A DNA stretch of 64,000 nt. It comes from an uncultured Verrucomicrobia subdivision 3 bacterium (GTDB lineage: Bacteria; Verrucomicrobiota; Verrucomicrobiia; Limisphaerales; UBA11358). Position numbers and translations under genes: made by a program. Of the stretch, positions 21,060 to 37,617 are shown piece by piece. Below the pieces are notes generated by a model that saw nothing but the letters and a program-made list of their open reading frames with translations, had not been told where the DNA came from and searched no databases. The stretch covers positions 1-64,000 of the forward strand of contig CAINLR010000136.1 of the NCBI GenBank assembly GCA_903850425.1, given 5' to 3'. Position 1 is the stretch's first letter. Every line of letters begins with the position of its first letter.

Positions 21060-21360
21060 ATTTTATTAGGCGATTTCAAAAGGAAAAGATACGCAGGTTT
21101 GGCGGCCAAGACAAGCTTGGGTTCGGTCCGACCAAACAGCCGTTCCCAAATGGACCCGTTGAAACTTGAGACCCAGCCATCCCACTGGATTTTTGAAAAA
21201 GTGCGCGCGGCTTGAGGCCCCTGAGCAGAATTATAAACTACTCCGCAAATTATAACTGCGCAGCGAGTTGCATTCTGGCATTGATTGACAGCGTATGAAT
21301 GAATTGTTAAAAGAGAAGCGTTCCTGGTCGTTCGGAGTTCTGGAAACACTGAGCCTGAAC
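21060..21360. other. Divergent promoter region of the vWA-PspA-ABC locus
   Basis: About 300 bases separate the exported OB-like gene (minus) from the vWA gene (plus). The stretch is AT-rich near 21225-21310, and I see no gene in it. It should hold the promoters in both directions. Confidence 0.5.
21285..21313 (+). promoter_or_regulatory. Candidate promoter of the vWA-PspA-ABC locus
   Basis: TTGACA at 21285-21290 and TAAAAG at 21308-21313 are 17 bases apart. Transcription would begin near 21320, which excludes the first ATG at 21295 as the start and leaves a 40-base leader before the ATG at 21361. Confidence 0.4.
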
Positions 21361-22077
21361 ATGAAACTAATTCGTCTGATCACCGGTTTGAGCCTGGGGG
21401 CAATCCTCTGGTCGAGCGCAACCGTGACTCGCGCCGCCGACGTGGAAGGCGTGGCCATCGCTATCGTTTATGATACCTCGGGCAGCATGAAAGACCCGGT
21501 CAATGACGACACCGGGAAAGCCTCGCCAAAATATCGCATCGCCAACCGGGCGTTGATCGCCATCGCCAATCGCATCCAGACTTTCGCCACCAATGCGCCT
21601 GGCGGCAGCCCGCGCAAAATTGAGGCGGCGCTATTTGTTTTCCAAAAGGACGCGCCGCATGCCGCGCTGCCGCTGAAGCCCTTCAATGCGGCTGATTTCA
21701 TTTCCTGGGCGCGTGGATTTTCCGAACCGACGGGCGGCACGCCGTTGGGAACCACACTCACTGCGGCGGCCCATGCCGTGCTGGACTCGGGCCTGACGCA
21801 CAAGCATGTGTTGGTCATCACGGATGGCATGAATACGGTCGGCCCTGATCCAGCGCGCATGCTCGCCAGCCTTCAACGTGAGACCGCTCAAAAGCAGACG
21901 AGCGTATCGGTTCATTTCGTGGCGTTTGACGTGGATGCCAAGGTGTTTGACGGCGTGAAGAAACTGGGGGCCACGGTGGCGAGTGCGGCGAACGAAAAGC
22001 AGCTCAACACGCAACTGGAGTTCATTCTGGAAAAGAAGATTTTGTTGGAAGAGGAAGAGCCGGCAAAAAAACCATAA
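21361..22077 (+). CDS. Exported von Willebrand factor A domain protein
   Basis: From the ATG at 21361 the product has 238 residues with a signal peptide (MKLIRLITGLSLGAILW). The vWA domain has the MIDAS metal site intact: YDTSGSMKD (DxSxS), the Thr in GTPLGTTL and the Asp in VITDGMNT. Such domains bind protein partners through a metal ion. It is the first gene of a co-directional run and only 12 bases before the PspA-like gene. The signal peptide places it in the periplasm, where it might bind the substrate-binding/OmpA protein encoded third. An N-terminal extension starting at 21295 is unlikely. Confidence 0.8.
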   Translation: MKLIRLITGLSLGAILWSSATVTRAADVEGVAIAIVYDTSGSMKDPVNDDTGKASPKYRIANRALIAIANRIQTFATNAPGGSPRKIEAALFVFQKDAPHAALPLKPFNAADFISWARGFSEPTGGTPLGTTLTAAAHAVLDSGLTHKHVLVITDGMNTVGPDPARMLASLQRETAQKQTSVSVHFVAFDVDAKVFDGVKKLGATVASAANEKQLNTQLEFILEKKILLEEEEPAKKP

Positions 22078-22089
22078 CCGAAAACCACT

Positions 22090-22845
22090 ATGTTCAGAGC
22101 CATCAAACGCATATTCATCTGGCTTGGCCTCGCGGCTGAGAAAGTCACCGAAACCGACGCCATCAATCAGGCGGTGGTCGAACGCGGCATCCGCGATTCC
22201 AAGACCAAGGCCGACAAGGCGCACTATGCCAACGGCCAGTTGGCTGGACAAATCGCTTTGTTGAAAGACCAGATTAAACGCCAGGAGCGTCAGCGCGAGG
22301 ATCTGCAAGGGATGTTGCAGGCGGCGGCGGCGGCGAATGACGAGGCCAACGGCGCGCATTATGCCGAAGAATTGGCCACCCTCGAATCGGATTTGAAGGA
22401 CAACCAAACTCAGGCCGACAGTCTGGAGCAACTTTACCAGCAGAACACGGAGATCATCGCCCAGAGCTTGCGCGAGATTCAGAAGTTTCAGCGCGAATTC
22501 GAGTCGGTCAAAGCCAAGGTCGCCATCGGGCGTTCGCTGGAAAGTCTGGCCGGCATGATGAAGAGTTCGATCAATGAATTGCAGGGCATGATGGGCGGCG
22601 AGATGGGCCAGTCCATGCAGCAATTGCGCCAGTCCGCCGCGGGCGGGGAGGGCCAGATGCGTGCCACTCTGGACCTCGCGAAGGAAATGGGTTCCGGTAT
22701 TTCCCGGCAGCAGGAAATGCGCAAGGCGCGCGGCTCGATGCTGTTTCAGGAATACAAAAAGAAAATGGGCATGGTGCAGCCGGAAGTGGCGGCGGCCGCG
22801 CCAACCGCCGCCAAAGCGCCGGAGAAACAGAAGATCGCGGAGTAG
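22090..22845 (+). CDS. PspA/IM30-like coiled-coil protein
   Basis: The protein has 251 residues. An amphipathic N-terminal helix (MFRAIKRIFIWLGLAAEKV) precedes a long coiled coil from about 35 to 150, with ALLKDQIKRQERQREDLQ and EELATLESDLKDNQTQ. A Met/Gln-rich stretch follows, and the tail is Ala/Pro-rich. PspA and IM30 proteins polymerise on the inner membrane and protect or remodel it under stress. The layout fits, though the sequence is a divergent member. It follows the vWA gene after 12 bases, so they are surely cotranscribed. Confidence 0.65.
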   Translation: MFRAIKRIFIWLGLAAEKVTETDAINQAVVERGIRDSKTKADKAHYANGQLAGQIALLKDQIKRQERQREDLQGMLQAAAAANDEANGAHYAEELATLESDLKDNQTQADSLEQLYQQNTEIIAQSLREIQKFQREFESVKAKVAIGRSLESLAGMMKSSINELQGMMGGEMGQSMQQLRQSAAGGEGQMRATLDLAKEMGSGISRQQEMRKARGSMLFQEYKKKMGMVQPEVAAAAPTAAKAPEKQKIAE

Positions 22846-22951
22846 AGTTAATTTGTGGTGTTGTCGGCCCGCGAGTGGAACTGTTGGTTTCCACTCGCTT
22901 TAGTGATGAATCCGTTTTGAAATCGAACCTAAACCCTGAACTAAGATACTT

Positions 22952-24694
22952 ATGACTGCCCGAGGAAAAATCGTATTAACCCTGATCATTCTCGCCCTGG
23001 TGGGCGGCGGCGTTTATCGCTGGTGGGACAAGATCGCCCCCAAGGGCGCATCCTCCCAGGTTTCCATCAATCCGCAGGACGTCAAAAACGCGCTCGCCGC
23101 GCAGGCGGCACAGCCCAAAGCCGCCGATGTCGCCAACAAGTTGCTCGCGGGTGACAAAGCCGTGTCGCTTGTGGACGGCTCCGCGATTCCGCCGGTCAGC
23201 GGCGTCAGCGATTACGACAAGCCAATGAAAGACGGCAAGCTGATCGTGCAATTTCCAATCAATGTCTGGCCCGGTTGGGCGCCGATCATTGTCGCCAACA
23301 ATGGCCTGGAGCCGAACGAAGGCAGCGTGTTCTTCAAGAAATATGGATTCTTCCTCAAGCTCTCCATCGTGGACGATCCGGTGAAGGCGCGCGACTTGTT
23401 CGCCAGTGGTCACAGTCACGTCCTCTGGGGCACGCTCGACATGATGGCTTTGTTCGCGCCGGAACTCGTCAAGGATTCGCGCACCGTGCCGGTGATCGCG
23501 CAGCAGGTGGATTGGTCGGGCGGCGGCGACGGCATCGTGGCGCGCGGCGACATTCGCAATATTAATGATTTTCGGCCAAAGGATGGCAAGCGCCGCAAGG
23601 TCGTGCTGGCGCAGAATTCTCCGAGCCATTACCTCATTATGTCGCTGTTGATTGACGCGGGCATTGATCCCGCGCAAGTGGATTTCAAATGGGCGGGTGA
23701 CGCGCCGTCAGCGGCAAAGATTTTTGTGCAAGACGCTTCGTTCGACGCGTTCGTGGGCTGGTCGCCGGATATTTACACCGTCACCGACAAAGTTCCCGGC
23801 ACTCGGCTCGTCGTCACGACCGGCAGCGCCAACCATCTCATCGCCGACGTGTGGGCGGTGCGGAATGATTTCTATCGCGATCATCCGGACATCGTCGCGA
23901 ATCTCGTGCGCGGTATTTTTGACGGCGTGGACATGGTGCGGAAGAACATTCCTGGCGCGGCTCAGGCGCTCTCCAAAGCCTTCGGTATTCCGGTCGAAGA
24001 TTGCACAAGCATGATCGGCAAAGACGGTGGCGTGGCCGAGGGCGACGCGCATCTGACGAACTATCGCGAGAATTCCAACTTCTTCCTCGACCCGATGAAT
24101 CCGTCAAACTTCGAAGTGGTTTGGAATCGCGCTTCGACGATTTACAAATCGCTCGGCGCGATTGACGCGCCCGTGTCCGCCGCCAAAGTGAAAGCGGCTG
24201 GCATCCTGGCCAAGCTGTCCGAGGAATACAAAGAAGTGCGCGACATGTCGCAGGCCACGTTCAAGCCCGGCGCGATGTTCAAGACCGCCGAGGCGGACTC
24301 GTCCGAGATTCTGACCAAGTCCGTCATCATCTCGTTTGAGCCGAACAAGAACGTGCTCAACGCCGAATACGATCCGACCATCCCGACCGTGATGGACGAA
24401 ATCGGCAAGCTGGCCGGCACGTTCGGCAACGCCTACATCGTCATCGAAGGCAACACCGACGCCAGCCGCAAAGGCGTGGTGCCCGCGGATCTCGTGCGCC
24501 AGTTGTCCTACGACCGTGCGGATTCGGTGCGCAAAGCGATCTTGAACAAATACAAATTCGATCCGAACAAGTTCAAAGTCATCGGCAACGGCTGGGATAA
24601 TCCGGTGCCGACGATGACTGACGCCAGCAATCCGGAACACAACAAGAAGAACCGTCGCGTGGAAGTGAAAGTCTTCCCGTTGGAGAAGGAATAG
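22952..24694 (+). CDS. ABC-type periplasmic binding protein fused to a C-terminal OmpA domain
   Basis: The protein has 580 residues. An uncleaved-looking N-terminal helix (KIVLTLIILALVGGGVY) anchors it in the membrane. Residues about 90-410 form a NMT1/TauA-like substrate-binding fold: VWPGWAPIIVANNGL, FASGHSHVLWGTLDMM, KVVLAQNSPSHYLIMSLL, FDAFVGWSPD and LVRGIFDGVDMV. Residues about 445-578 form an OmpA-like peptidoglycan-binding domain with FEPNKNVL, YIVIEGNTDA and NKKNRRVEVKV. A binding protein tied to both the inner membrane and the wall is very unlike a free ABC receptor and suggests a sensor. The ABC permease and ATPase follow downstream. Confidence 0.85.
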   Translation: MTARGKIVLTLIILALVGGGVYRWWDKIAPKGASSQVSINPQDVKNALAAQAAQPKAADVANKLLAGDKAVSLVDGSAIPPVSGVSDYDKPMKDGKLIVQFPINVWPGWAPIIVANNGLEPNEGSVFFKKYGFFLKLSIVDDPVKARDLFASGHSHVLWGTLDMMALFAPELVKDSRTVPVIAQQVDWSGGGDGIVARGDIRNINDFRPKDGKRRKVVLAQNSPSHYLIMSLLIDAGIDPAQVDFKWAGDAPSAAKIFVQDASFDAFVGWSPDIYTVTDKVPGTRLVVTTGSANHLIADVWAVRNDFYRDHPDIVANLVRGIFDGVDMVRKNIPGAAQALSKAFGIPVEDCTSMIGKDGGVAEGDAHLTNYRENSNFFLDPMNPSNFEVVWNRASTIYKSLGAIDAPVSAAKVKAAGILAKLSEEYKEVRDMSQATFKPGAMFKTAEADSSEILTKSVIISFEPNKNVLNAEYDPTIPTVMDEIGKLAGTFGNAYIVIEGNTDASRKGVVPADLVRQLSYDRADSVRKAILNKYKFDPNKFKVIGNGWDNPVPTMTDASNPEHNKKNRRVEVKVFPLEKE

Positions 24695-24728
24695 GCCGGA
24701 GCATTGGCAGACGCTTCACCGTTAGCTT

Positions 24729-25040
24729 ATGACCGCGTTCTACATTCTCTGCGGTGTGGCGGCACTGGTCTGGCTGGTCGGCCTTGCGGCTGGCGTGCTG
24801 GCGCTCGGTTGGGGTGTTGCGGTTCGGCAGCGTCTGCGGCCCGCCCTCATCCTGTCCCTTGTGGCCATCGTCATCGGCTGGCTGGGAATGATGCTGTTTC
24901 ATGTCCGCTATTCCAAGACCGTCAACGGCTCGGGTTGGGCGATTGATTCGAAATGGTTCTTTCTGGTGCCGCTGCTGCTGGGTGCGGTGTCACTGGCGGT
25001 CGCACTTTGGAAATGGATGAAGTCGCGCCATGCTCATTAG
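24729..25040 (+). CDS. Small membrane protein of the PspA-ABC locus
   Basis: The protein has 103 residues with three hydrophobic helices: FYILCGVAALVWLVGLAAGV; ALILSLVAIVIGWLGMMLF; and WFFLVPLLLGAVSLAVALW. Basic residues flank them. I know no family for it. It lies between the substrate-binding/OmpA gene (34 bases) and the permease gene (61 bases), so it is probably a subunit or stabiliser of the transporter. Confidence 0.7.
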   Translation: MTAFYILCGVAALVWLVGLAAGVLALGWGVAVRQRLRPALILSLVAIVIGWLGMMLFHVRYSKTVNGSGWAIDSKWFFLVPLLLGAVSLAVALWKWMKSRHAH

Positions 25041-25101
25041 AACCCAGTTGGAAAATGCCTGTTTCTGCAAGAGCTTTCAGGTAATTGCGAATCGTTAACT
25101 T

Positions 25102-25965
25102 ATGCTCGGCTTCTTCATATTTGCGTTCGCCTTCGTGGCGCTGCTCACGCTGGTCGTGCGGTTCGGCCAACTGCGGGTCCGCGCCGAACTCTCCGAGACT
25201 AACTCGCTGGCGCTGACCCTCGGCTTCGTGGGGCTGATGCTGGCCGGTTGGTGGTTCCTCACTTACGGAGCCACCGTGGAAGCGCGCATTTTGCCGCCCC
25301 TCATCCTGCCCAGCCCGCTGGAAGTATTGCAGGCATTTCCCAAACTGCACTTCGAGCAGCAACTGGTGCGCAGCGCGCTCACCTCCTTTGTGCGGGTGAC
25401 CCTCGGCTTTAGTCTGGCGGCCATCGTCGCGGTGCCGCTGGGAGTCTATATGGCCACGTTTCCGACCGTATCCGCATTCTTCCGGCCACTGGCATTGGTG
25501 GGAGCCTATGTGCCGATTGTGGTTTTCGTGCCGCTCACCCTGGCGTGGTTCGGCCTGAGCGAGACGCAGAAGGTCGGTTTTCTTTTCATCGGCTGTTTTG
25601 TCGCGCTGTTGCCGCTCGTGATCAAAGACATTGCCAACGTGCCGGCCGCGTATCTCGACGTGGCGGTGACCAAAGGCGCGAGCCAATGGCAACTGGTCCG
25701 CTACGTTTTGTTTCCGGTGGCGCAGGCGGACATTTGGGATCATTTGCGTGGCGTCTATGGCGTCGGCTGGGGCTGGATTATTCTCGCCGAGGTTATCGGG
25801 GCGGAGCGTGGGTTGGGCTACCTGATCGATGTTTCGAACAAACGCGGCCATACCAACGCCATCTTTGCCATCATCATTGTCATCGTGGTGATCGCCATCG
25901 CCTGCGACCAATTGTGGAAATTGGGCGGACGTCTGCTGTTTCCCTACGCGAACCGGAGAGAATAA
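25102..25965 (+). CDS. ABC transporter permease (TauC/SsuC/NrtB type)
   Basis: The protein has 287 residues. Six or seven hydrophobic segments and the loop AVTKGASQWQLVRYVLFPVA match the EAA motif that docks on the ATPase. LPSPLEVLQAFP before the first core helix, then SFVRVTLGFSLAAIVAVPLG, is typical of the BPD_transp_1 permeases for taurine, sulfonate and nitrate. An extra N-terminal helix (GFFIFAFAFVALLTLVV) is unusual. The stop overlaps the ATPase start by one base (TAATG). Confidence 0.9.
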   Translation: MLGFFIFAFAFVALLTLVVRFGQLRVRAELSETNSLALTLGFVGLMLAGWWFLTYGATVEARILPPLILPSPLEVLQAFPKLHFEQQLVRSALTSFVRVTLGFSLAAIVAVPLGVYMATFPTVSAFFRPLALVGAYVPIVVFVPLTLAWFGLSETQKVGFLFIGCFVALLPLVIKDIANVPAAYLDVAVTKGASQWQLVRYVLFPVAQADIWDHLRGVYGVGWGWIILAEVIGAERGLGYLIDVSNKRGHTNAIFAIIIVIVVIAIACDQLWKLGGRLLFPYANRRE

Positions 25966-26837
25966 TGGACGAACAAACTCCAGCAAATCCGGCCACACCG
26001 AAGGCATTGCCCGAAGTGGTTCGGTTCAACAAAGTCACCAAATCATTCGGCGAAGGCCCGAATGCCAAGGTGGCCATTCAGGACGTCTCGTTTGTCGTTC
26101 ACGATCTGCCGAACCAAGGCGAACTCATCGCCATCGTCGGTCCATCCGGCTGTGGCAAATCCACGTTGCTGCGCATCCTCGCTGGGCTGCGGCCGCATTT
26201 TCCGGCCACGTCCGGCGACGCGCATGTTTTTGGGAAACCCATCGAGAAGCCGGATGCCGGACGCGGGATGGTGGACCAAAAGTATTCGCTCATGCCGCAT
26301 CTCACGGTCGCGGACAACATCGCTTTCGGTCTGAAACTGCGTGGCGTCGGCCGTAAGGAACGGCGCGATCGCGCGCAGGAGTGGGCCAAAAAAGTCGGTC
26401 TTGACGGCAACGAGGACAAGTATCCGTCCGAATTGTCCGGCGGGATGCAGCAGCGCGTGTCCATCGCGGCCACGCTCATTTTGGAGCCAAAAATTTTATT
26501 GATGGACGAGCCGTTCGGTGCCTTGGACCCAAAGATTCGGATGCAGATGCAGGAGTTGCTCGTGCGCCTCTGGAACGAACAGCAGAGCACGGTGTTTCTC
26601 GTCACTCACTCGATGGAAGAGGCGGTTTACCTGGGCGACCGCGTGATGCGCATGGCTGCCAAGCCGGGCCGCTTGGTGGAGGAATTGCAGGTGCCGCGTC
26701 CCGACGAACCGCCCGAGGTGATGCGTGCCCGGCCGTGGTTCAGCGAACTCACCGAGGATCTGCTGCGCCGGCTGGAAACCGACGCGCCGCCCGGCGGCGA
26801 TTTAGCCGGCACCGACAAGTGGCGCCGCCGCGCCTGA
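25965..26837 (+). CDS. ABC transporter ATP-binding protein (TauB/SsuB/NrtD type)
   Basis: The gene starts at 25965 by a one-base overlap with the permease stop. A longer frame upstream runs through the permease gene and is spurious. The protein has 290 residues and all ATPase motifs: Walker A GPSGCGKST, a Q-loop in VDQKYSLMP, signature LSGGMQQR, Walker B ILLMDEPFGALDP and switch His in VTHSMEEA. The C-terminal 60 residues (ELQVPRPDEPPE) resemble those of the nitrate and taurine importers. Together with the permease and the binding protein it makes a complete importer. Confidence 0.92.
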   Translation: MDEQTPANPATPKALPEVVRFNKVTKSFGEGPNAKVAIQDVSFVVHDLPNQGELIAIVGPSGCGKSTLLRILAGLRPHFPATSGDAHVFGKPIEKPDAGRGMVDQKYSLMPHLTVADNIAFGLKLRGVGRKERRDRAQEWAKKVGLDGNEDKYPSELSGGMQQRVSIAATLILEPKILLMDEPFGALDPKIRMQMQELLVRLWNEQQSTVFLVTHSMEEAVYLGDRVMRMAAKPGRLVEELQVPRPDEPPEVMRARPWFSELTEDLLRRLETDAPPGGDLAGTDKWRRRA

Positions 26838-26838
26838 C

Positions 26839-27390
26839 ATGACCACGCGTGAACTCATCCACGGAGCCGGACAACACCCGGTGGCGCTGTTGCTGGCCTT
26901 CGTTGCGCCGCCGGTGATCGCGTGGCTCGCGGGACAATCGCATGGCCAAGAGCAGGGCAAGTTGTCCCCGTGGAAATATCTCTACTCCGTGCTCGTCTAT
27001 CTGGTCTGCGTGCCCGGAATGTTTGCCGGCGTGATCACGGCCTACACGCTTTTCTTCAGCCATGAAAATTTGCTCGATGCGAATCTGCTGGTTTATTTTC
27101 TGCCCATCGCCTCGATGGTCGCTACGCTCGTGCTCATCCGGAAAAATGTTTCGTTTGACGACGTGCCCGGCTTTGACCGGCTTTCCGGCTTGATGGTGAT
27201 GGTAGCCTGCAGCTTCGGCATCGCGCTGGCGATTGAGCGGACCAGGATCTTCCTGTTTTTCGGCGGTTCCATCGCCGCGTTGTTGGCGCTGGCGGCGGGA
27301 GTTTTTGCGCTGTTGAAGTGGGGCACCTACATGCTCTTTCGCCGCCGCGATGAGCCGAAGCAGGCACCGCCGAAATTTCCCGGCGCATGA
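26839..27390 (+). CDS. Polytopic membrane protein of the PspA-ABC locus
   Basis: The protein has 183 residues and begins one base after the ATPase stop. About five hydrophobic helices are visible, including ALLLAFVAPPVIAWL, LYSVLVYLVCVPGMFAGVI, the block LLVYFLPIASMVATLVLI, LMVMVACSFGIALAI and IFLFFGGSIAALLALAAGVF. The tail is basic and Pro-rich. It resembles unnamed membrane proteins often found in PspA-linked loci, but I cannot assign it. The near-zero gap makes it part of the same transcript and likely of the same complex. Confidence 0.7.
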   Translation: MTTRELIHGAGQHPVALLLAFVAPPVIAWLAGQSHGQEQGKLSPWKYLYSVLVYLVCVPGMFAGVITAYTLFFSHENLLDANLLVYFLPIASMVATLVLIRKNVSFDDVPGFDRLSGLMVMVACSFGIALAIERTRIFLFFGGSIAALLALAAGVFALLKWGTYMLFRRRDEPKQAPPKFPGA

Positions 27391-27440
27391 CAAATTTTTG
27401 CATGTCCTCCGGCATGGCCAAACCTTAAACTCTACCGGCA

Positions 27441-28388
27441 ATGGAAGAGCAAGCACCCAACTACCACAGCGAGTTCCTGCGTAGTCCGCACCACGCGGCG
27501 CTGGGCATCCTCACGCTGGGCGTGGGCTTCCTGAGCGCAAACCTGCTCGGGTTGATCGTTGGCGGCACGCTCTACGCGCTCGGCTGGATTTATCTGCCGG
27601 ACCTGCCGTTCTTCCGCGGTTGGGTGGATCGTCGTGGCGAAGCCGTCAAGCGCGCCGCCGAGCTGCAACGCGTTGCGGATTTCGTTCGTCGCCGCGATGC
27701 TTTGCTGGACTCACTCACCTCGTCCCGCCGCGAACGCTACGCCCGATTGGCTGCCGTCTGCCGCGACATCGAGACCGCCAGCGCGGATAATCTGCTGGCC
27801 TCGCCGGACCCCACCACCGACCCGCGCCTGCGCAAGCTGGACGAGCTCATGTGGACTTTTCTCCGCCTGCTCGGCATAGAAGAATCGCTCGAAAAATTCC
27901 TCGAATCCGAACGCCAGGAAGATTTGCCCAGCGTGGTAAAGGAGGCCGAAGCTGAGGCTAAACGCTTGTCGGCCGAACTTGATTCGCTCAAAAGTTCCGG
28001 CAACGGGGCCGCGCTGGAAACCAAGCAACGCTATCTCGGCTCGCGGCTCGAACGGCTCGAAGTGTTGCGCAAGCGGCAACAGCGTCTGGATCAAGCCCAG
28101 GAAAATCTCGCGCTCGTGGTTTCGGAACAGGAACGCCTGGATCAGCAGATCAAACTCATCCGCGCCGACGCTGTCGCCACGAAAAATGCCGAGGCGCTCA
28201 CCGCCCGCATTGACGCCACGGTCGAGCATCTGGACCAGACGAACAAGTGGCTGTCCGAATTGGATGAATTCAAAGACCTCGTCGCCGACATGCCCGCCAC
28301 CGAAATGCGCGTGGGCTATGCCGCCAGCGCACCGCCGGTGCTGCCTGAACCAGCGCGTGCGGCGAGGCCGACGGTTAGGCAAAGGTGA
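27441..28388 (+). CDS. Membrane-anchored coiled-coil protein of the PspA-ABC locus
   Basis: The protein has 315 residues. One or two N-terminal helices (ALGILTLGVGFLSANLLGLIVGG) are followed by a long helical region. Heptad-like runs include DLPSVVKEAEAEAKRLSAELD and RLDQAQENLALVVSEQERLDQQ. The end is Pro/Ala-rich. I recognise no named domain. Its architecture, a membrane anchor plus cytoplasmic coiled coils, suits a scaffold that could meet the PspA-like coiled coil. It sits 50 bases after the membrane protein gene. Confidence 0.65.
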   Translation: MEEQAPNYHSEFLRSPHHAALGILTLGVGFLSANLLGLIVGGTLYALGWIYLPDLPFFRGWVDRRGEAVKRAAELQRVADFVRRRDALLDSLTSSRRERYARLAAVCRDIETASADNLLASPDPTTDPRLRKLDELMWTFLRLLGIEESLEKFLESERQEDLPSVVKEAEAEAKRLSAELDSLKSSGNGAALETKQRYLGSRLERLEVLRKRQQRLDQAQENLALVVSEQERLDQQIKLIRADAVATKNAEALTARIDATVEHLDQTNKWLSELDEFKDLVADMPATEMRVGYAASAPPVLPEPARAARPTVRQR

Positions 28389-28398
28389 GGCTTTGGAT

Positions 28399-28821
28399 AT
28401 GAGCAGCATCCCACCTGACATTTACGAACGGGTGCATGAATTGTCAGTTGCAATAGTTAATGCATCACAAGCTGATGATGTGGCGCTCGACGCATCGCTC
28501 CGCCAGCAGATGCAATCTTTTTTTCAGGAGCAAATCGATTTAGGACGATCACATCCCTTTCTTACCGAGGCGATGGCAGATTATACGGAAAATTCGGCGG
28601 AAGCGACACGCCTCTATTTGTTGGCGTTAACACAGGCACGGTCATTTCCGGATGAACTGACGCACACTAAGATGATTTCTTTAGCGGAAAGACTTGTTGA
28701 GCAGAACCGCAGAGAAGAAGCCGAAGGATTTTTGCGAGATGGACGTGCAGAAGCTGTTCGCCGAAACGACGTTTTTTGGATTCAAGAAGCGGATCGGCTG
28801 CTCGCTCAATTGAGCGCCTGA
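28399..28821 (+). CDS. Small soluble TPR-like protein, possibly inserted
   Basis: The protein has 140 residues from the ATG at 28399, ten bases after the previous stop. It is helical throughout: DIYERVHELSVAIVNAS; a FFQEQIDLGRSHPFLTEAMAD helix; LYLLALTQARSF; and EEAEGFLRDGRAEAVRRNDV, followed by WIQEADRLLAQL. The helix pairs suggest a small TPR-type domain. Its base composition is visibly more AT-rich than the genes on both sides, so it may have been acquired or evolved separately. No named family is recognised. Confidence 0.6.
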   Translation: MSSIPPDIYERVHELSVAIVNASQADDVALDASLRQQMQSFFQEQIDLGRSHPFLTEAMADYTENSAEATRLYLLALTQARSFPDELTHTKMISLAERLVEQNRREEAEGFLRDGRAEAVRRNDVFWIQEADRLLAQLSA

Positions 28822-28881
28822 CTTTGGTCGGACAAATTGCATAAATTCACCTCTCGTTCTAACAATTAAACGATTCATGAT

Positions 28882-30690
28882 ATGACCAGGCTAGCCTCAG
28901 CGCCTTCAATTGACTCCACGACTCCCGTTTCCCGTCTCCCCCTGCGCGGTTGGGCGCTCGAACTTGCGCGACGCTGGAACGGCGGCAGTTATTCGCTGTT
29001 CGTTTTGCACGGGAATATTTTCGACCTCTTCCCGCTGCCTGAAGGCGACCGGCTCAGTTACGTGCCGCTGAAGACTTTTCTGTCGCGCCGCCTGTTTCCA
29101 GAGCGCTCCTGCCTGATGTTCTACGATATTTCCGGCGGCCTGACGTTTGGCGCGGCGGAAATGCAGAAACGATTTTTTGAATGGTTGGAAATCTTTGATA
29201 GTGTCGAGAACACGAACTTTCACCAGCAGGGCCCGCCAAAAAGTTTCCTCGCCCTCGCGCCGCTGCTCACACGGTTTTTTCTGAAAGTGGCCGAGGACGA
29301 TCGCCAATGGAACGGCGTCACGCTGGTCATTGATTTCCCCGAGAAGCTGATTCCCGCCACCGAGCAGGCCGGCGCGAGCGTGGAGGAACGCATCAATCTG
29401 GTCACGTTTCTCAAATGGGCGTCGGCCCCGGAACTGTCGCGCATTGATGTCGGCGTCCTGCTGGTCACGGAGTCCGCGACCGAGTTGCACGCCGATCTGT
29501 TGCGCAATCCGCATGTCGCACAGGTCCGCATCGAGTTGCCGGACAGCGACGAGCGGCTGCGCTTTCTGCAATCCGGCTGGGCCGAGAAACTGGCGGATGG
29601 AAAAGCTTTTGCCGAATGGTGCGATTTTACGCCCGCCGAACTGGCACCACGCACGGCGGGCTTGAATGTTTTACGCCTGCAACACTTCGTCGCCGAAGCC
29701 ATCCGCAATGGCATCCGCATCACGAGCGATCATCTGGCGACGAGCAAGAAGCGGCTCATCGAGGAATTTTGCCAGGGTCTGGTGCGCTTTAAGGATCCGA
29801 AGCCGGGCGTCACGCTGGATCGCGTCGCCACGCACACGGCGGCGAAAGCCAAGCTGCGCGAACTGGCGTGGCTCATCAAAAACAACAAGACCGATGTGCT
29901 CGAACGCGGCGTGCTGTTGCCGGGGCGCGTCGGCGTCGGCAAATCTTTTCTGGTGGACTGCTTCGCCAGCGAGTGCGGCTTGCCGGTGATGGAGCTCGGT
30001 GAGTTCCGCTCGAAGTGGGTGGGCGACACCGAGCGGCAACAGGCGCGCATTTTGATGACCGTCCGCGCGCTCGGTCCGGTGATCGTAGTCGTGGACGAGG
30101 CCGACGCCGTGTTCGGTTCGCGCGACCAGGATTCCGGCGACAGCGGCGTTTCGGGTCGCGTCTTCGCCGCCTTCGCCGCGCACATTGGCGATTCCACGTT
30201 GCGGGGCCGCGAGCTTTGGGTGGCGATGACTTCGCGCCCGGATTTGCTGGCGATTGACATGAAGCGCCAAGGCCGCTTCGGTCTGTGTGTGCCGTTATTT
30301 CCGGCGCAAGGCGCGGACGATGTGGTGGAACTTTTCAGCGTGGTCGCCAACGTCAAAAAGATTTTGCTGGCTGATGCGATCAAGGCTTTCATCCGCGAAC
30401 ACCTCGGCACGCGCCCGCTCACCGGCAGCGACGTGGAGGCCATTCTCACGCGCTCGAAAGAACGCGCCGTGCTCGCCAAGCGCGACGATGACGTGCAACT
30501 AACCGATCTTGAAGAAGCGGTGAATTCTTTCATTGATCCGCTTGATCCGGAATTGCTCTCGCTCCAAGAACTCGCCGCCGTGCTGGCGTGTTCTGATCGC
30601 CGCTACCTGCCCGCGAGCTATGTGGATGCGGATCGCGCCGTGCTGATGGAGTCTTTCGCCCGGTTCAAATTGCGCGCCGGTCGGCGATGA
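28882..30690 (+). CDS. AAA+ ATPase with a degenerate first and a canonical second ATPase domain
   Basis: The protein has 602 residues. The first about 300 residues look like an ATPase-type fold without Walker A: LFVLHGNIFDLFPLP, then VTLVIDFPEKL as a Walker-B-like strand. The second domain has Walker A PGRVGVGKSFL, VMELGEFRSKWVGDTERQ, Walker B VIVVVDEADAV, sensor 1 VAMTSRPDL and Arg-finger-like RQGRFGLCVPL. It resembles the FtsH/CDC48-type AAA+ class, without a protease domain. It probably remodels protein or membrane assemblies of this locus. It is 60 bases downstream of the TPR-like gene. Confidence 0.8.
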   Translation: MTRLASAPSIDSTTPVSRLPLRGWALELARRWNGGSYSLFVLHGNIFDLFPLPEGDRLSYVPLKTFLSRRLFPERSCLMFYDISGGLTFGAAEMQKRFFEWLEIFDSVENTNFHQQGPPKSFLALAPLLTRFFLKVAEDDRQWNGVTLVIDFPEKLIPATEQAGASVEERINLVTFLKWASAPELSRIDVGVLLVTESATELHADLLRNPHVAQVRIELPDSDERLRFLQSGWAEKLADGKAFAEWCDFTPAELAPRTAGLNVLRLQHFVAEAIRNGIRITSDHLATSKKRLIEEFCQGLVRFKDPKPGVTLDRVATHTAAKAKLRELAWLIKNNKTDVLERGVLLPGRVGVGKSFLVDCFASECGLPVMELGEFRSKWVGDTERQQARILMTVRALGPVIVVVDEADAVFGSRDQDSGDSGVSGRVFAAFAAHIGDSTLRGRELWVAMTSRPDLLAIDMKRQGRFGLCVPLFPAQGADDVVELFSVVANVKKILLADAIKAFIREHLGTRPLTGSDVEAILTRSKERAVLAKRDDDVQLTDLEEAVNSFIDPLDPELLSLQELAAVLACSDRRYLPASYVDADRAVLMESFARFKLRAGRR

Positions 30691-31143: not shown

Positions 31144-31428
31144 TTACGCCTTGGCCGGCTCGGGGTCATACACGCAGGCGAGATCGAGCACCTGGCCGCA
31201 GGAACATTGCACGCGGAGATGGGTGACGCGGTCGCCATCGCGTTGGACGGTGACGCGTGGTTCGCAGTTTTTTTTACCAGGATTGTTCGGAGCCGGCGTG
31301 TCGAGAGTTTGAAAGCTATCGGGTTTCTTGCCGGAGGCGTTGGTAACCGTGACGCGAAACTCGCGCTTTTCCGCGGAAGCCGGCGCGGCGGTAAGCGGGA
31401 CAAAGGAATCAGTGCGCGGCGAAGTCAT
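31144..31428 (-). CDS. Small Cys-containing protein next to motB, unknown
   Basis: The protein has 94 residues. The first 55 are low-complexity Thr/Pro/Ala and the end is ordered: VTVQRDGDRVTHLRVQCSCGQVLDLACVYD, with a CxC pair and a third Cys that could bind metal. The start overlaps the motB stop by four bases, so it is expressed with the motor genes. No family is recognised. Confidence 0.6.
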   Translation of the reverse strand: MTSPRTDSFVPLTAAPASAEKREFRVTVTNASGKKPDSFQTLDTPAPNNPGKKNCEPRVTVQRDGDRVTHLRVQCSCGQVLDLACVYDPEPAKA

Positions 31429-32192
31429 GGCTGTAAATTGGCCGTCTCGCGCGAGGCGGCGTCCACCGATTGTTTGACTCGGATGAGGACGGTGACGCGC
31501 CGGTTGACTTCATCCTCCGCCGGTGTGTCCGGCATGGGCACAGTGTCGGCAAATCCGGAGACCTTGCTGATTTGCTCCGGCAAGACTCCGCCAAACACAA
31601 TTTTGCGGCGGGCGGCGTTGGCGCGTTCGGTGGAAAGTTCCCACTTGTTGCCCGATTCCCGCCCGCTGTCTTTTTGAGTCTCCGTGTGTCCTTCCATTTC
31701 AATGTGGAAAGTGGTGTAGCGCGCAATTTCCCAAGCCAGCGTGTCGAATACGAAACTGCCATAATCGGTAAACACGTCGGTGTTGGGATTAAAGATGGGC
31801 TTATGGGCGCGGTCAAAAACGTTGATTCTCATGCCTTCGGCGGTCACATCAATTTTAATGGCGGTCTGGCCCGCCTCCTGATCTTTGAACAGTTTGGCGA
31901 GATCTTCTTTGAGATGGTGCATGGCTTCAACTTCCAGGGCGGAGAGGGAGGCGGAAAATTTCCCCTCCGTGCGCGCCGTGCTCGACGCTTCCTTGTTCGG
32001 GATGATGCCAGCGGATTGCTGGGTGAGCGAGGAGAACGGATTCTTGAAGGCGCGTTCGACGGCGTCCTTGATTTTCTGATCCTGCGAGGTGAGCCACAAA
32101 CAAAGGAAGAGTGCCATCATGGCGGTGACGAAATCGGCATAGGCCACCTTCCAAGATCCGCCGTGATGTCCGCCATGTCCTTTTTTTGCCAT
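31425..32192 (-). CDS. motB: Flagellar motor protein MotB
   Basis: The protein has 255 residues. A His/Gly-rich N-terminus (KKGHGGHHGGSWKVAYADFV) leads into the single membrane helix TAMMALFLCLWL. The Asp in YADF is the proton-binding residue. The C-terminal half is the OmpA-like peptidoglycan anchor with FHIEMEGHTET, WELSTERANAARR and VNRRVTVLI. With MotA it forms the stator. The gene order motA then motB with a 9-base gap is normal. Confidence 0.92.
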   Translation of the reverse strand: MAKKGHGGHHGGSWKVAYADFVTAMMALFLCLWLTSQDQKIKDAVERAFKNPFSSLTQQSAGIIPNKEASSTARTEGKFSASLSALEVEAMHHLKEDLAKLFKDQEAGQTAIKIDVTAEGMRINVFDRAHKPIFNPNTDVFTDYGSFVFDTLAWEIARYTTFHIEMEGHTETQKDSGRESGNKWELSTERANAARRKIVFGGVLPEQISKVSGFADTVPMPDTPAEDEVNRRVTVLIRVKQSVDAASRETANLQP

Positions 32193-32201
32193 CGCCAGAA
32201 T

Positions 32202-33071
32202 TTATTTGCCGGATTTGAGCGCTTTGAACATTTGTTCCAATTCATCCGCCGAGGGCCGAAACTCGCTGCTCAACCCGCGCCGTCCCAGCTCCACGGCGGT
32301 GATCGGTGCCATGCCGTTGGCAAAGCCCGTCACGCAGGACGCAATGCAACGGGTGAAATCCAGTTCCGCTTCGCCGACAAATTCCAGATTTGTGGCGAGT
32401 GGGCCCATGAAACCATAGGCCAGCAAGATCCCGAGAAAGGTGCCGACGAGCGCCGCCGCGACGTGCGTGCCGATTTCTTCCACCGCCCCGCCGATGGAAC
32501 TCATGGTGATGACAATGCCCAGCACCGCCGCCACAATGCCGAAGCCCGGCATGGCGTCGCCGGTTTTTTGCAGCACGGAAACGGGCGCATGATGCTCCGA
32601 CTCCAGCCGGTCAATCTGCGCGTCCAGCAGCAGCCGCAACTGATCGGGCTTGATTTTACCGTCAATGATCGGCCGCAGCGCGCCGCACAAAAATTCCACC
32701 GCGTGATGGTCGCCGGAAAACTTGGGGTATTTTTTGAAGACGGAACTTTTCGCCGGATCCAACACATGTTCTTCCAAGGCGATCATGCCGTTGCGGCGAC
32801 CGAGCAGAAATAATTCATACAGCACCTTGAGCAGGTCGTCATAGGCGGCCCGGCTGTAGGGCGCGCCCTTCAAAGCCAGGCCCACACCCTTGGCGATATC
32901 GAGCAGGACTTTTTTGGGTGACATGATGATCAGCGACCCGGCGGCCCCGCCGGCGATGATCAGGATTTCATTCATGGTCGCATGCAGAATCACGCGCATG
33001 TCGCCGCCCTCCAGCAGGAAGCCGCCGAAGACGCAGACGAGCACCGTGATGGCCCCGATGATGATGATCAT
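32202..33071 (-). CDS. motA: Flagellar motor protein MotA
   Basis: The protein has 289 residues. It has the MotA start IIIIGAITVLVCVFGGFLLEGG, four membrane helices and the cytoplasmic loop with IALEEHVLDPAKS, the family's charged torque-generating region. The C-terminal helices include MPGFGIVAAVLGIVITMSSIGG and the AALVGTFLGILLAYGFMGPL block. It forms the proton channel with MotB. Its start overlaps the fliA stop by four bases. Confidence 0.92.
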   Translation of the reverse strand: MIIIIGAITVLVCVFGGFLLEGGDMRVILHATMNEILIIAGGAAGSLIIMSPKKVLLDIAKGVGLALKGAPYSRAAYDDLLKVLYELFLLGRRNGMIALEEHVLDPAKSSVFKKYPKFSGDHHAVEFLCGALRPIIDGKIKPDQLRLLLDAQIDRLESEHHAPVSVLQKTGDAMPGFGIVAAVLGIVITMSSIGGAVEEIGTHVAAALVGTFLGILLAYGFMGPLATNLEFVGEAELDFTRCIASCVTGFANGMAPITAVELGRRGLSSEFRPSADELEQMFKALKSGK

Positions 33072-33961
33072 TTGCGGCGGGCAGTTGCGGGCCGTTGGGC
33101 CAGCCCGGATTCAAAGCGTTGCAGATACGCGCGCATGGACAGGATCGCTTGTGAATGAATCTGGCAGATGCGGGATTCGGTCAGGCCGAACACTTCGGCG
33201 ATTTCGCGCAGGTGCAAATCCTCGACGTAATAAAGCGCCAGCACTTTCCGCTGCATTTCCGGCAGATCCTGGAGCCGGGCCAGAATCACCGCTTTCAATT
33301 CGTTGCTGGAAACTTGATCCACCGGGCTTTCATTGGCCGAGTCGGCAATCACTTCGTAGAGCGCGCCGCCGTCGCCTTCCTCGCTGGAACTGGCGGAGTC
33401 CAGGCAGACAAAGGCGGCGGGCCGAACCTCGTCCAGTAATTCGGCATATTCCGCCGGCGTCAGCTTCATCTCTTTGGCCATCTGCGCCTCGGTCGGCGTC
33501 CGGCCGAGAGCTTGTTCGAGCGCCGCCATCACCGTCTTGATTTTGCGGGCCTTCTCATGAATCGTGCGCGGCACCCAATCCATCCGGCGCAACTCATCCA
33601 GCATCGCCCCGCGCACCCGCACGCGCGCGTAGGTTTCAAAGGCGGTGCCGCAGGTGGGATCATAATTGCGCAGCGCCTGCAACAAGCCGACCAGGCCGGC
33701 GCTGTAAAGATCATCGTGGCTCACATGATCCGGCAACGTCATCGCCAGCCGGCCTACGACGGCCGAGACCAGCGGCAAATATTTTTGAACGAGTTCGTTT
33801 TCGGTGTCGGTGTCCGACTGGCGGTGGTAGCGCTTCCACAATTCCTGCGCGTTCGGCACCGGCACGGCGAGCCGGCTGTTGTGATTTTCCGCCGACCAGG
33901 CCCAAGGCTGCTCCGGGGCGGGTGCTGCAGTTTCGACGGTGGTAGCGGTGCAAATACTCAT
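33068..33961 (-). CDS. fliA: RNA polymerase sigma factor for flagellar genes (FliA/WhiG)
   Basis: The protein has 297 residues with regions in order: sigma-2 (DDLYSAGLVGLLQALRNYDP, FETYARVRVRGAMLDELRRMDWVPR), sigma-3 and sigma-4 (LPEMQRKVLALYYVEDLHLR, LTESRICQIHSQAILSMR). The DELRRMDWVPR block is the sigma-28 signature. It directs late flagellar and motility genes. About 60 residues of Ala/Pro-rich N-terminal extension are longer than in E. coli FliA. It overlaps both neighbours by four bases, which shows tight coupling. Confidence 0.92.
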   Translation of the reverse strand: MSICTATTVETAAPAPEQPWAWSAENHNSRLAVPVPNAQELWKRYHRQSDTDTENELVQKYLPLVSAVVGRLAMTLPDHVSHDDLYSAGLVGLLQALRNYDPTCGTAFETYARVRVRGAMLDELRRMDWVPRTIHEKARKIKTVMAALEQALGRTPTEAQMAKEMKLTPAEYAELLDEVRPAAFVCLDSASSSEEGDGGALYEVIADSANESPVDQVSSNELKAVILARLQDLPEMQRKVLALYYVEDLHLREIAEVFGLTESRICQIHSQAILSMRAYLQRFESGLAQRPATARRK

Positions 33962-34200
33962 ACTTTAGCGGGGGTTTTGGTTTCCGAAGCAGCAGCCAAG
34001 CGGGCACGACGTTGTTGTTCGAGCGCATCCGTCAATCCGTCAAACCAGATGCGGCTCCACCAACGACCCAACAGACCACCGAGCAACGCCGCCACACAGG
34101 CGTGCCAGAGCGCGGTGGACCACAGACAATTCCCCAGCAGACTACTGCCGGTGCCGAGGACAAATCCTACAATTGAACCTAAAATCATCATGGCTTTCAT
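33958..34200 (-). CDS. Small membrane protein in the flagellar operon
   Basis: The protein has 80 residues with two hydrophobic helices (MMILGSIVGFVLGTGSSLL and LWHACVAALLGGLLGRWW) and a charged tail (QQRRARLAAASETKT). It ends in a four-base overlap with fliA. The position matches small unnamed proteins between flhF and fliA in other phyla, but there is no sequence motif to name it. Confidence 0.6.
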   Translation of the reverse strand: MKAMMILGSIVGFVLGTGSSLLGNCLWSTALWHACVAALLGGLLGRWWSRIWFDGLTDALEQQRRARLAAASETKTPAKV

Positions 34201-34274
34201 GTTCCGATGCCTTGTTTAGCAAGCCCTTTGCCACCTGTTGAAAACCGATGGGGAAATGCAGAAATCGCCAATGT

Positions 34275-35285
34275 TCACCGTGGATTGGTGTGCGGAAATA
34301 AAAGTGAAGACTCGGCGCGGTTAAATTCACCCGGAATTTTTTGCCCACCGCTCAACCAGCTCAACGAGCAATTTGTGCCCAACACGAAATTCCACAGTTT
34401 TACGCGGCGCGGCTCCTCGTCGAGGTGCGTAAAAATCACATCCTCCGGCCCGAACGGCGCGAACGCGTTGAACTGCTCAAACAGCAGCGTCGTGTCATAC
34501 GCGGCGTTCAAAACCAGGTGCAGATGCGGCTGCGGCAACGAAAATAAAAGTTCGCGCAATACTTTCAGGCTCGCCTGATGGTGATAATCCACGCCCGGCA
34601 GATCCACGAACAACAGTTCCTCCGCGCCCGCCGGTTCGCCCCAGAAGCGATCCACCGGCACGCCGATCATCTCGGCGTGAATGGAGAGAAATTCCGACGT
34701 GTTCGCGGTTTCGCCATCCAGCCGCCAGACGCGGGCGCGATTTTCGCCGCGCAGCACCGAGGCTGTCAGCCATTTGCACAACGCGGTGGTCTTGCCCGAA
34801 CCGGGCGGCCCGATGAACACATGCGGCCGACCGGTGCCCGCCTGAATCGTCCGCGCGGGACGCCAAAATGTTGCCAGCGTGTCGCGCACAGCATTCCATT
34901 CCGCAATCGGCATGGGCGGCGGCACTGCGCCGTGAATGGAGCGCACCTTGTTTTCCAGCCGATCCGCAAATTCCGCGAGCAGGCCGAGCGATTCCAGCCA
35001 CGCAATACTGCGCCAGCGATGCGGCCGCTGCGGCATTTCCGAGGGCTGGTCCTCCAGCCTTTCGTCGAACGGAATGTAGGCATCCACGCCGGGCGGCACG
35101 CGATGGCGCGGCGTTTCCGGCACGGACGCCGTCACTTCGATTTGTCCGTTGCCCGGCAATAGTCGAGAGAATCCCGTGGCCGGAATTTTGCGCACGCTGA
35201 CGATGATGGCGTCCGGCCCCAAATTTTCATGCACGAGGCGGATGGCCGCCGACGCATTTTCCGCGGTGAAAGTGGCTAGTTTCAT
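34275..35285 (-). CDS. flhF: Flagellar SRP-type GTPase FlhF
   Basis: The protein has 336 residues. The N-terminus MKLATFTAENASAAIRLVHE, then LGPDAIIVSVRKI, is the FlhF start that senses polar placement. The NG GTPase domain has VFIGPPGSGKTTALCKWL (P-loop), LLFVDLPGVDYH in place of DTAGR, and FTHLDEE in place of the TKLDE motif. FlhF sets the number and position of flagella. The gene lies about 200 bases downstream of flhA on the same strand. It is rather short compared with about 370-450 residues elsewhere. Confidence 0.85.
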   Translation of the reverse strand: MKLATFTAENASAAIRLVHENLGPDAIIVSVRKIPATGFSRLLPGNGQIEVTASVPETPRHRVPPGVDAYIPFDERLEDQPSEMPQRPHRWRSIAWLESLGLLAEFADRLENKVRSIHGAVPPPMPIAEWNAVRDTLATFWRPARTIQAGTGRPHVFIGPPGSGKTTALCKWLTASVLRGENRARVWRLDGETANTSEFLSIHAEMIGVPVDRFWGEPAGAEELLFVDLPGVDYHHQASLKVLRELLFSLPQPHLHLVLNAAYDTTLLFEQFNAFAPFGPEDVIFTHLDEEPRRVKLWNFVLGTNCSLSWLSGGQKIPGEFNRAESSLLFPHTNPR

Positions 35286-35484
35286 TCAAAACGTGGCTTG
35301 GATCCGGGTGCCAAGATGGGAATGGGCGCGTGCGCCCGTCCGGGCCGCGACGGCCCGCACCGCTGCAGTTCCCGGAATCGGGTAAGCAGCCGCACTGTGT
35401 TAAGATGTGTCACGCATGGTTTCGGCTTGGCGGCGACCTCACCTAATCCAATTTTGAATTTCACGGTTGGCTTCATCGGCAAAT

Positions 35485-37617
35485 TCAAATTGGCTCCAAA
35501 CACGGAATGACGGCGGCGTTTTGCACCTGCACGCGCGGCGGAATTTCTGCATACGACAACACCGCGAGGTCGTTGAAGGTGTTTTCGAAGAAGCGACGGA
35601 ACGCCAGGCGCAGTGTCGGCGAGCACAAAACCATGGGCTGCTGGCCGGCCGCGAGCATTTGCTGGATCAATTTCGAGAGCGATTCGATGACGTGCCGCGC
35701 CAGCCGGGGTTCGATGACCAGCGCGATTTCGCTGGCGGATTGGCGGATCCCCTGTGCGAGCTGCGCTTCCAATTTTGGATCAATCGTGATCGCGCGCACG
35801 GTGCCGGCTTCCGTCGTAAACGGCTTCGACAATTGGGCCATCAGCGCGCGCCGCGCATGTTCGGAAAGCTCGTCCGGGTTCTTGGTCATCGTGGCGTAAT
35901 CGCCCACTTTTTCCAATATGCCCGCGAGGTTGCGGATGGAAATGCCCTCGGCCAATAAGTTCTGCAAAATGCGCTGCACCGCGCTCATGGAAAGTTGCGC
36001 GGGAATCAGCTCATTCACCACCGCCGGATGCGTCAGCTTCAGATTATCCAGCAGGGATTGCACATCCTGGCGCGTCAAAATCTCGTGGCAATGCCGCCGC
36101 ACGGTTTCGGACAAATGCGTGATGAGCACCGAAGGCGAATCCACCACGGTGAAGCCCGCCACTTCGGCGTTCTTGCGTTCGACTTCGGTGACCCAAGTTG
36201 CCGGCAACTGGAACACCGGTTCCACGGTCGGAATGCCTTTGAGCACGGCTTTGCTGTTGGTGGCGTTCATCGCGAGCCAATGCTGCGGCATCAACTGGCC
36301 TTGGGCGATCGGGTTGCCCTTGAGCACGAACCGATATTCGTTGTTGCCCAGTTGGAGATTATCGCGCAGCCGGATCGGTGGGATGAGCAGGCCCATGTCT
36401 GACGCGAACTGTCGCCGCACGCCGGTGACGCGTTCCAAAAGATCGCCGCCTTTTTTGCCGTCGGCCATCGGCACGAGACCGTAGCCCAATTCGATCTGCA
36501 TCGTGTCGAGCGTGAGCAGCGTTTCAATTTTCTCCGCCGATTTGGCTTCCGCTGCCGTGGCCGCGCCCGCCGTGACCATTTTGTTATCACCGGGCTTTCC
36601 GGCGGAGGTGGTCCCGTTCATCGCCGTGCCGGTTTGCGCCGCTTGATCCGGCATGCCGTGGCGGTGGATCGAATAGGAAACCAAGCCCACAATCACCGCG
36701 AGCACGAGAAACGGCATAGTCGGCAGGCCGGGCACGATCGCCATGATGCCGAGCATTGCCGCCAAAATCGTCAAGGCTTTTGGATAAAACATCAATTGCC
36801 GGCCCAATTCCACGCCCAAATCATTTTTCGAGGAGGCGCGCGTCACCAAAATACCGGCGGCGACCGACGTGATCAGCGCAGGCACCTGCGACACCAGACC
36901 GTCGCCGATGGACAACATCGTGAACCGCGAGAGCGCCTCGCTCATCGTCATGCCTTTTTGCATGATGCCCACCGCGAAACCGCCAACAATGTTGATGATC
37001 GTGATGAGAATGGCCGCAATGGCATCGCCGCGCACGAACTTGCTCGCACCGTCCATCGCCCCGTAAAAATCCGCTTCCTCTTCGACCGCTCGGCGACGAT
37101 TGCGCGCCTCGGTTTCATTGATCAAACCTGCGTTGAGTTCCGCATCAATCGCCATTTGTTTGCCGGGCATGGCGTCCAACGTGAACCGCGCGGCAACTTC
37201 CGCGATGCGCCCTGCGCCCTTGGTGATAACGATGAAATTGATTAAGACGAGAATGCAGAAGACGACCATGCCGACGACGTAGTTGCCGCGCACGACGAAA
37301 TTCCCGAACGCCTCGATGATGTGGCCCGCGTAGCCATCCAGCAAAATCAGCCGCGTGGAGGCGACGTTCAGCGCCAGGCGATACAACGTGATAAACAGCA
37401 GCAAGGTGGGGAAGCCGGTAAATTCTGCCGGAGTGCGCAGGTAAAGAATGACCAGCAACGTCAGCAGCGAAAGCGAAATGCTCAGCGTCAGCAACAGATC
37501 CAGCAGGAACGGCGGCACCGGCAGGATCAGCAGGAGGATCGTGCCGAACAAGGCAAAAACCAGCCACAAATCGCCGTATTTCAGCAATTTTCGCAGTCTG
37601 TCGCTCAAGGTGCCCAT
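35485..37617 (-). CDS. flhA: Flagellar export apparatus protein FlhA
   Basis: The protein has 710 residues, the usual size. Eight N-terminal membrane helices include LILPVPPFLLDLLLTLSISL and the conserved FHIPEP-region counterpart FTLDAMPGKQMAIDAELN, then ETEARNRRRAVEEEADFYGAMDGASKFVRGD. The cytoplasmic half has LGYGLVPMAD, IRLRDNLQL and DVQSLLDNL. FlhA is the central gate of flagellar type III export. It is the first gene of this minus-strand flagellar block. flhB and the other export genes are not in the window. Confidence 0.95.
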   Translation of the reverse strand: MGTLSDRLRKLLKYGDLWLVFALFGTILLLILPVPPFLLDLLLTLSISLSLLTLLVILYLRTPAEFTGFPTLLLFITLYRLALNVASTRLILLDGYAGHIIEAFGNFVVRGNYVVGMVVFCILVLINFIVITKGAGRIAEVAARFTLDAMPGKQMAIDAELNAGLINETEARNRRRAVEEEADFYGAMDGASKFVRGDAIAAILITIINIVGGFAVGIMQKGMTMSEALSRFTMLSIGDGLVSQVPALITSVAAGILVTRASSKNDLGVELGRQLMFYPKALTILAAMLGIMAIVPGLPTMPFLVLAVIVGLVSYSIHRHGMPDQAAQTGTAMNGTTSAGKPGDNKMVTAGAATAAEAKSAEKIETLLTLDTMQIELGYGLVPMADGKKGGDLLERVTGVRRQFASDMGLLIPPIRLRDNLQLGNNEYRFVLKGNPIAQGQLMPQHWLAMNATNSKAVLKGIPTVEPVFQLPATWVTEVERKNAEVAGFTVVDSPSVLITHLSETVRRHCHEILTRQDVQSLLDNLKLTHPAVVNELIPAQLSMSAVQRILQNLLAEGISIRNLAGILEKVGDYATMTKNPDELSEHARRALMAQLSKPFTTEAGTVRAITIDPKLEAQLAQGIRQSASEIALVIEPRLARHVIESLSKLIQQMLAAGQQPMVLCSPTLRLAFRRFFENTFNDLAVLSYAEIPPRVQVQNAAVIPCLEPI

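Follow-up and report, generated by a model that had tools for sequence, protein, structure and literature searches.

The locus examined here raises the question of what a solute receptor serves when it appears to be fastened to both the inner membrane and the peptidoglycan. The window (the whole stretch of DNA that was analysed, 64,000 nucleotides from an uncultured Verrucomicrobia subdivision 3 bacterium) contains an open reading frame which begins with ATG, occupies exactly positions 22952..24694 of the forward strand and encodes 580 residues. A sequence-only reading had described the product as a fusion of an uncleaved-looking helix, an NMT1/TauA-like fold and an OmpA-like end, and the open reading frame and domain matches agree with that description: as judged from its sequence, the receptor is composed of an inner-membrane anchor, a variable linker, a TauA/SsuA-type domain and an OmpA-type domain, delimited as follows.

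22952..24694, forward strand: the receptor, 580 residues, with a transmembrane anchor, a TauA-type binding domain and an OmpA domain (open reading frame, Pfam, NCBIfam, family profile)
22958..23035, forward strand: residues 3-28, N-terminal membrane anchor, probably uncleaved (model helix, conservation, rule-based cleavage scan)
23036..23224, forward strand: residues 29-91, linker, differing in length by about 27 residues across relatives (comparison of relatives)
23225..24166, forward strand: residues 92-405, TauA/SsuA-type solute-binding domain, with D193, W270 and D299 aligned to TauA cleft residues (profiles, alignment)
24305..24679, forward strand: residues 452-576, OmpA-type peptidoglycan-binding domain, with D503 and R522 (Pfam, profile, alignment)

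The ATG start is supported by an N-terminal motif, MTxxGKxxxTxxxL, which is common to relatives, and the fusion is neither a misassembly nor a chance frame, because the full-length architecture recurs on more than a dozen other contigs at 63-91% identity. This recurrence bears out the earlier belief that related fusions exist, as does the published description of an operon type that contains one: the main text of Ravi et al. 2024 (PMC11237479) presents PspA/Snf7-AAA+-ABC operons with a “PBPB and OmpA” protein (example OGG56892.1). Since both the operon type and the receptor fusion are already known from that source, the fusion is not new, and no paper on the fusion protein itself was found in the literature beyond it. 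Predicted structures of the receptor, both full-length and single-domain, were of poor quality, so that statements about its pocket are drawn entirely from sequence alignment.

The N-terminal helix (residues 3-28) is among the better-predicted parts of the otherwise poor model. Its hydrophobic core ends at about residue 21 and is followed by YRWWDK, which also follows the helix in most relatives, and the longer pattern MTxxGKxxxTxxxLxxxGxxxYRWWDK is kept, with minor variation, in 16 of 16 sequences with an intact N-terminus. Six close relatives were scanned together with the window protein for signal-peptidase sites, by a simple rule rather than a trained predictor: the window protein and five of these relatives have no small-x-small site at a distance of up to seven residues from the hydrophobic core, and a candidate site in L020 lies inside the helix. 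With no site near the core and the anchor motif conserved, the helix is most likely uncleaved and stays as a membrane anchor, much as it had looked at first. Distant relatives, from Vibrio plasmids and from L043-L045, carry classic cleavable signal peptides instead, and anchoring in the membrane is thus confined to certain subfamilies.

At the other end, PF00691 matches residues 462-567 (E=2.9e-9; 37.6 bits against a cut-off of 27.2), and the motif NKKNRRVEVKV, previously noticed as part of an OmpA-like end, stands at residues 564-574 with its NRR conserved. Among solved structures the closest is the A. baumannii OmpA domain 3td3 (E=2.6e-9; 6e-16 with the family profile), and D503 and R522 align with its Asp/Arg pair, the diaminopimelate contacts. 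R522 is present in all aligned OmpA-bearing members, and D503 in all of these except a second Vibrio-type paralogue clade (Vib2 and the V2 proteins of L070-L074), which has Ser, Arg or Gln. The wall-binding residues of the receptor look functional, and the protein would be held to peptidoglycan through this domain. The C-terminus being OmpA-like and the anchor being conserved and presumably uncleaved, the proposed double tether to membrane and peptidoglycan is probably real.

OmpA-type domains are also found in MotB/PomB and in anchored proteins of the TssL/TagL type, and MotB and PomB have, like the receptor, an inner-membrane helix and a linker; unlike the receptor, these proteins have no intervening solute-binding domain, and unlike MotB/PomB, the receptor has no MotA-like partner in its operon. 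The arrangement of membrane helix, linker and OmpA domain, which recalls MotB, would suit a purely structural tether whose binding domain is a ligand-free spacer or docking module, and such a tether could also explain why the receptor is retained in operons without ABC genes (see below), but its cleft residues are kept across very divergent members, ABC-less ones included, and would be needless in a spacer, which makes this explanation very improbable. The top Foldseek match, 6aeo (“TssL periplasmic domain”), extends over the full length of the receptor and was given no weight as a possible fusion-construct artefact; its length suggests what is presumably a maltose-binding-protein crystallisation fusion.

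The evidence for the binding domain is of several kinds. Pfam NMT1 matches weakly (E=0.02; 15.3 bits against a cut-off of 20.5), and no TauA/SsuA-type profile in Pfam or NCBIfam exceeds its curated cut-off for the receptor, yet the NCBIfam matches to SsuA_fam (1.6e-10) and ABC_peri_uca (1e-9) are significant, and TauA (6ssy) matches the receptor family profile with E=6.6e-15, all of which upholds the fold that had been proposed. Glu106, Thr132 and Asp205 of TauA hold the taurine amine, and Trp176 is a further pocket residue (PMC6906117). An alignment whose numbering (chain offset 21) reproduces these four residues places D193, W270 and D299 of the receptor at Glu106, Trp176 and Asp205, respectively, with Asp replacing Glu in the first case, so that the pocket comparison suggested earlier, run here on TauA, gives matching cleft positions. 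Of 32 aligned members, ABC-less ones included, all have D299 and 31 have D193, and W270 is absent only from the Vibrio-type-1 clade; SsuA has Gly at the position of TauA Asp205. The receptor thus has the fold family and the positions of TauA Glu106, Trp176 and Asp205 in common with TauA/SsuA (of TauABC and SsuABC), whereas TauA is soluble, without the anchor and OmpA domain that the receptor has, and the first loop of the receptor (NVWPGWAP) differs from TauA/SsuA. The cleft resembles a taurine-type pocket for small amines, which points to a small solute as ligand, presumably one that carries an amine group.

These observations bear on the role originally proposed for the protein, that of a wall-fragment or wall-distance sensor, responding to muropeptides or to how far membrane and wall are apart. 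Such a sensor would be expected to have tethers at both sides and conserved OmpA ligand residues, as the receptor does, but the binding domain is of the TauA/SsuA/NrtA kind and its cleft of the small-solute kind found in TauA, with D193, W270 and D299 at TauA positions and the amine-binding positions conserved, and the linker, differing in length by about 27 residues between close relatives, fits a slack tether better than a ruler. Wall sensing is on this evidence very unlikely.

The receptor gene lies within a run of genes in one direction, with short gaps, from 21295 to 30690 on the forward strand, in the order VWA, PspA-like, receptor, small membrane protein, permease, ATPase, membrane protein, CC315, small protein and AAA+. 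Its companions are the following.

21295..22077, forward strand: VWA-domain protein with an N-terminal hydrophobic segment and the metal-site motif DTSGS (Pfam VWA, E=5.3e-6)
22090..22845, forward strand: PspA-like protein (PF04012 below cut-off; profile match to canonical PspA)
24729..25040, forward strand: small membrane protein, 103 residues, not found in related loci (open reading frame, locus comparison)
25102..25965, forward strand: ABC permease, TauC-like (profiles, operon comparison)
25965..26837, forward strand: ABC ATPase, TauB-like, starting at MDEQT (profiles, operon comparison)
26839..27390, forward strand: membrane protein, 183 residues, found in close relatives only (open reading frame, locus comparison)
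27441..28388, forward strand: CC315, a hydrophobic N-terminal region and a coiled coil (sequence features)
28399..28821, forward strand: small protein, 140 residues, without a family (locus comparison)
28882..30690, forward strand: AAA+ ATPase with a CDC48/VCP-like C-terminal half (Pfam, NCBIfam, structure-relative search)

The operon described in the main text of PMC11237479 comprises a PspA homologue, an AAA+ ATPase, an ABC ATPase, a permease, a solute-/peptidoglycan-binding protein and a TM-bearing Snf7-like protein; the window operon, in which the PspA homologue, AAA+ ATPase, ABC ATPase, permease and SBP-OmpA protein occur together, is of that type, and CC315, which matched neither PspA nor any solved structure in profile searches, is probably its “Snf7 with TM segment”. 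The VWA gene, the conserved, probably uncleaved anchor and the ABC-less operons belong to the present analysis and do not appear in that main text. The window PspA-like protein scores 17.2 bits against the PF04012 cut-off of 33.9, and E<=0.01 is reached in 5 of 13 PspA-like members (best 2.8e-6), while profile-profile comparison aligns 148 columns with canonical PspA at 95% probability, a coiled-coil control reaching 0.5%. In the AAA+ protein, Walker A and B motifs lie in the C-terminal half, no Walker A being seen in the N-terminal one. MAGs labelled Verrucomicrobia, Lentisphaerae and Fermentibacteria have the operon genes in this order too, in most cases with neither of the two small membrane proteins; the operon is thus kept across several phyla, and its conserved core is without any metabolic gene.

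Three further observations concern this gene set. Canonical PspA (PF04012) was found in none of six genomes with the PspA-like gene in the operon (G000, G093, G136, G166, G211, G214) and in five of seven without it (G063, G226, G227, G258, G283, G300, G355), a small and phylogenetically non-independent sample in which the operon type of G355 does not come from the genome-wide search. A riboswitch that might hint at the ligand was sought, with no Rfam match within the window and tRNAs only in six related loci. A role in anti-phage defence was set aside, PADLOC giving only weak and partial matches apart from a generic ABC ATPase.

Downstream of the receptor, the TauC-like permease and TauB-like ATPase carry typical motifs, and the locus could encode an ordinary NitT/TauT-type ABC importer, its binding protein tethered for efficiency (it may be likened to other membrane-anchored or permease-fused binding proteins) and the PspA-like and AAA proteins serving only to maintain or assemble the membrane complex. 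Locus L042, where the genes for receptor, permease and ATPase have no PspA-like, CC315 or AAA gene in their vicinity, agrees with this. Plain tethered import is the main rival to a receptor that serves a machine, and its probability, though short of an even chance, is considerable; what tells against it is the conserved core without a metabolic gene and the occurrence of the tethered receptor in operons without permease and ATPase.

These operons, Verrucomicrobiota operons without the ABC pair that retain the doubly tethered receptor, are what this analysis adds. L038 (genome G093) has the order VWA, PspA-like, receptor, CC315, AAA, with a receptor-CC315 gap of 3 bases; L039 (G136) has the same order, with VWA not detected; and L040, L041 and L075 retain receptor and CC315. 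Relative to the window, the PspA-like and AAA proteins of G093 and G136 are 80-83% and 63-66% identical, about as close as those of more distant ABC-plus operons, whereas the receptors, which are paralogues, are only about 29-30% identical. The ABC-less receptors group together as a single clade (100/100), which has a conserved motif of its own, SEYAGYAG; the anchor is present in 5 of 5 CC315-linked members, and three unlinked members have cleavable signals. The outlying L024 operon has the transporter. On the simplest reading, receptor, permease and ATPase would have been swapped for an ABC-less receptor, in a direction which the trees leave unproven, the nesting of ABC-less inside ABC-plus operons being not decisive.

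A genome-wide search of G093, G136, G300 and G227 found no permease closer than 28-32% identity, these matches coming from generic ABC systems, and the three such loci inspected (G136, G093 and G300) belong to an ABC system that has a soluble binding protein of its own. ABC-less receptors could borrow such an unlinked system, so that loss of transport in these genomes is not proven. Because the ABC-less operons keep the PspA-like and AAA genes and a doubly tethered receptor whose acidic cleft residues are intact, the receptor seems to go with the PspA/AAA machine also where it has no transporter of its own, and its retention in relatives that lack the transporter suggests a role beyond that of supplying a nutrient pump. 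The earlier suspicion that so tethered a protein differs from a normal ABC receptor is supported by the ABC-less relatives; tethering alone does not stop transport, and uptake is possible in the window.

The reading preferred here, to which about an even chance is given, is that of a doubly tethered receptor which serves a PspA-like/AAA+ envelope-maintenance machine, with a small amine-bearing solute as ligand and the ABC pair as importer or transducer. The N-terminal helix would remain in the inner membrane, a flexible linker would carry the TauA-type domain, whose ligand would be a small solute, probably one with an amine group, and the OmpA domain would fix the receptor to peptidoglycan. 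In the window the receptor would serve the adjoining TauC/TauB-like transporter, itself an importer of the ligand or a ligand-driven transducer, and would be coupled to the cytoplasmic PspA-like/AAA+ membrane-remodelling machine and the VWA protein; ligand occupancy of the wall-held receptor may report to that machine or position it, and the ABC pair would be optional. We infer the lack of cleavage, the binding to the wall, the ligand type and this signalling. The sequences themselves display the architecture, the kept wall-binding residues (D503, R522, NRR) and cleft residues (D299 and D193), the conserved anchor without a nearby cleavage site, retained in the CC315-linked ABC-less receptors, and the operon linkage across phyla around a core without metabolic genes, along with the receptor in ABC-less operons: L038 and L039 keep the PspA-like gene, AAA and tethered receptor, with no permease orthologue found elsewhere in their genomes. 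The preferred reading is weakened by the typical motifs of the window permease and ATPase, which suit plain import, by the possible borrowing of an unlinked ABC system, by G300 and G227, where the PspA-like gene is absent and AAA distant, by the weak Pfam support for PspA membership and by the poor structure models.

That a receptor pinned to membrane and wall actually controls a bacterial ESCRT-III/Vps4-like (PspA-like/AAA+) remodelling machine, with the ABC transporter as an optional transducer missing in some lineages, is offered tentatively and is less likely than not. For the question of how bacterial PspA/ESCRT-III-like machines sense events outside the inner membrane, a machine-linked, doubly held receptor, even without a transporter, would provide a testable route from periplasm to membrane remodelling; if plain import is instead correct, the locus would still be instructive as an ABC importer tethered to the wall.

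A comparable set of genes is found on Vibrio plasmids, where SBP-OmpA proteins, VWA, ABC ATPase and permease are clustered as in the window operon, TelA is present, and no AAA or PspA-like match was found. The receptors, annotated “nitrate ABC transporter substrate-binding” and “phosphate ABC transporter substrate-binding/OmpA family”, are about 24% identical to the window receptor; one receptor has a signal peptide and another has lost the wall-binding Asp. Two SBP-OmpA proteins are likewise a feature of a related system of Verrucomicrobiota and Vibrio plasmids (L070-L074, L025 and L026), one with a signal peptide and the other membrane-anchored with a decayed wall-binding Asp, together with VWA and, in some, a soluble binding protein, the ABC pair, AAA or TelA.

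The operon of the window looks to have been acquired horizontally, because its receptor is 91% identical to those of G166 and G214, from other families of the phylum, as against 60-63% for UvrB (77-85% within the genus), and because no other searched genome of the genus has the operon: among 49 family genomes, all of one genus, the full-length receptor gene occurs only in the window's own, and 12 of 289 genomes across the phylum give a strong match. A 186-kb contig filed as viral (L076, IMGVR_UViG_3300029286_002355) carries VWA, PspA-like, receptor (63% identical), permease, ATPase and CC315, and may be misfiled bacterial DNA. Convergent to the operon in the window, at 31425-37617 on the reverse strand, are MotB-like, MotA-like and apparently flagellar genes (FlhF- and FlhA-like by eye); a flagellar link was dismissed as coincidence, the operon recurring without neighbouring MotA/MotB-like genes. 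Elsewhere in the window, at 51497-58102, is an open reading frame of 2201 residues.
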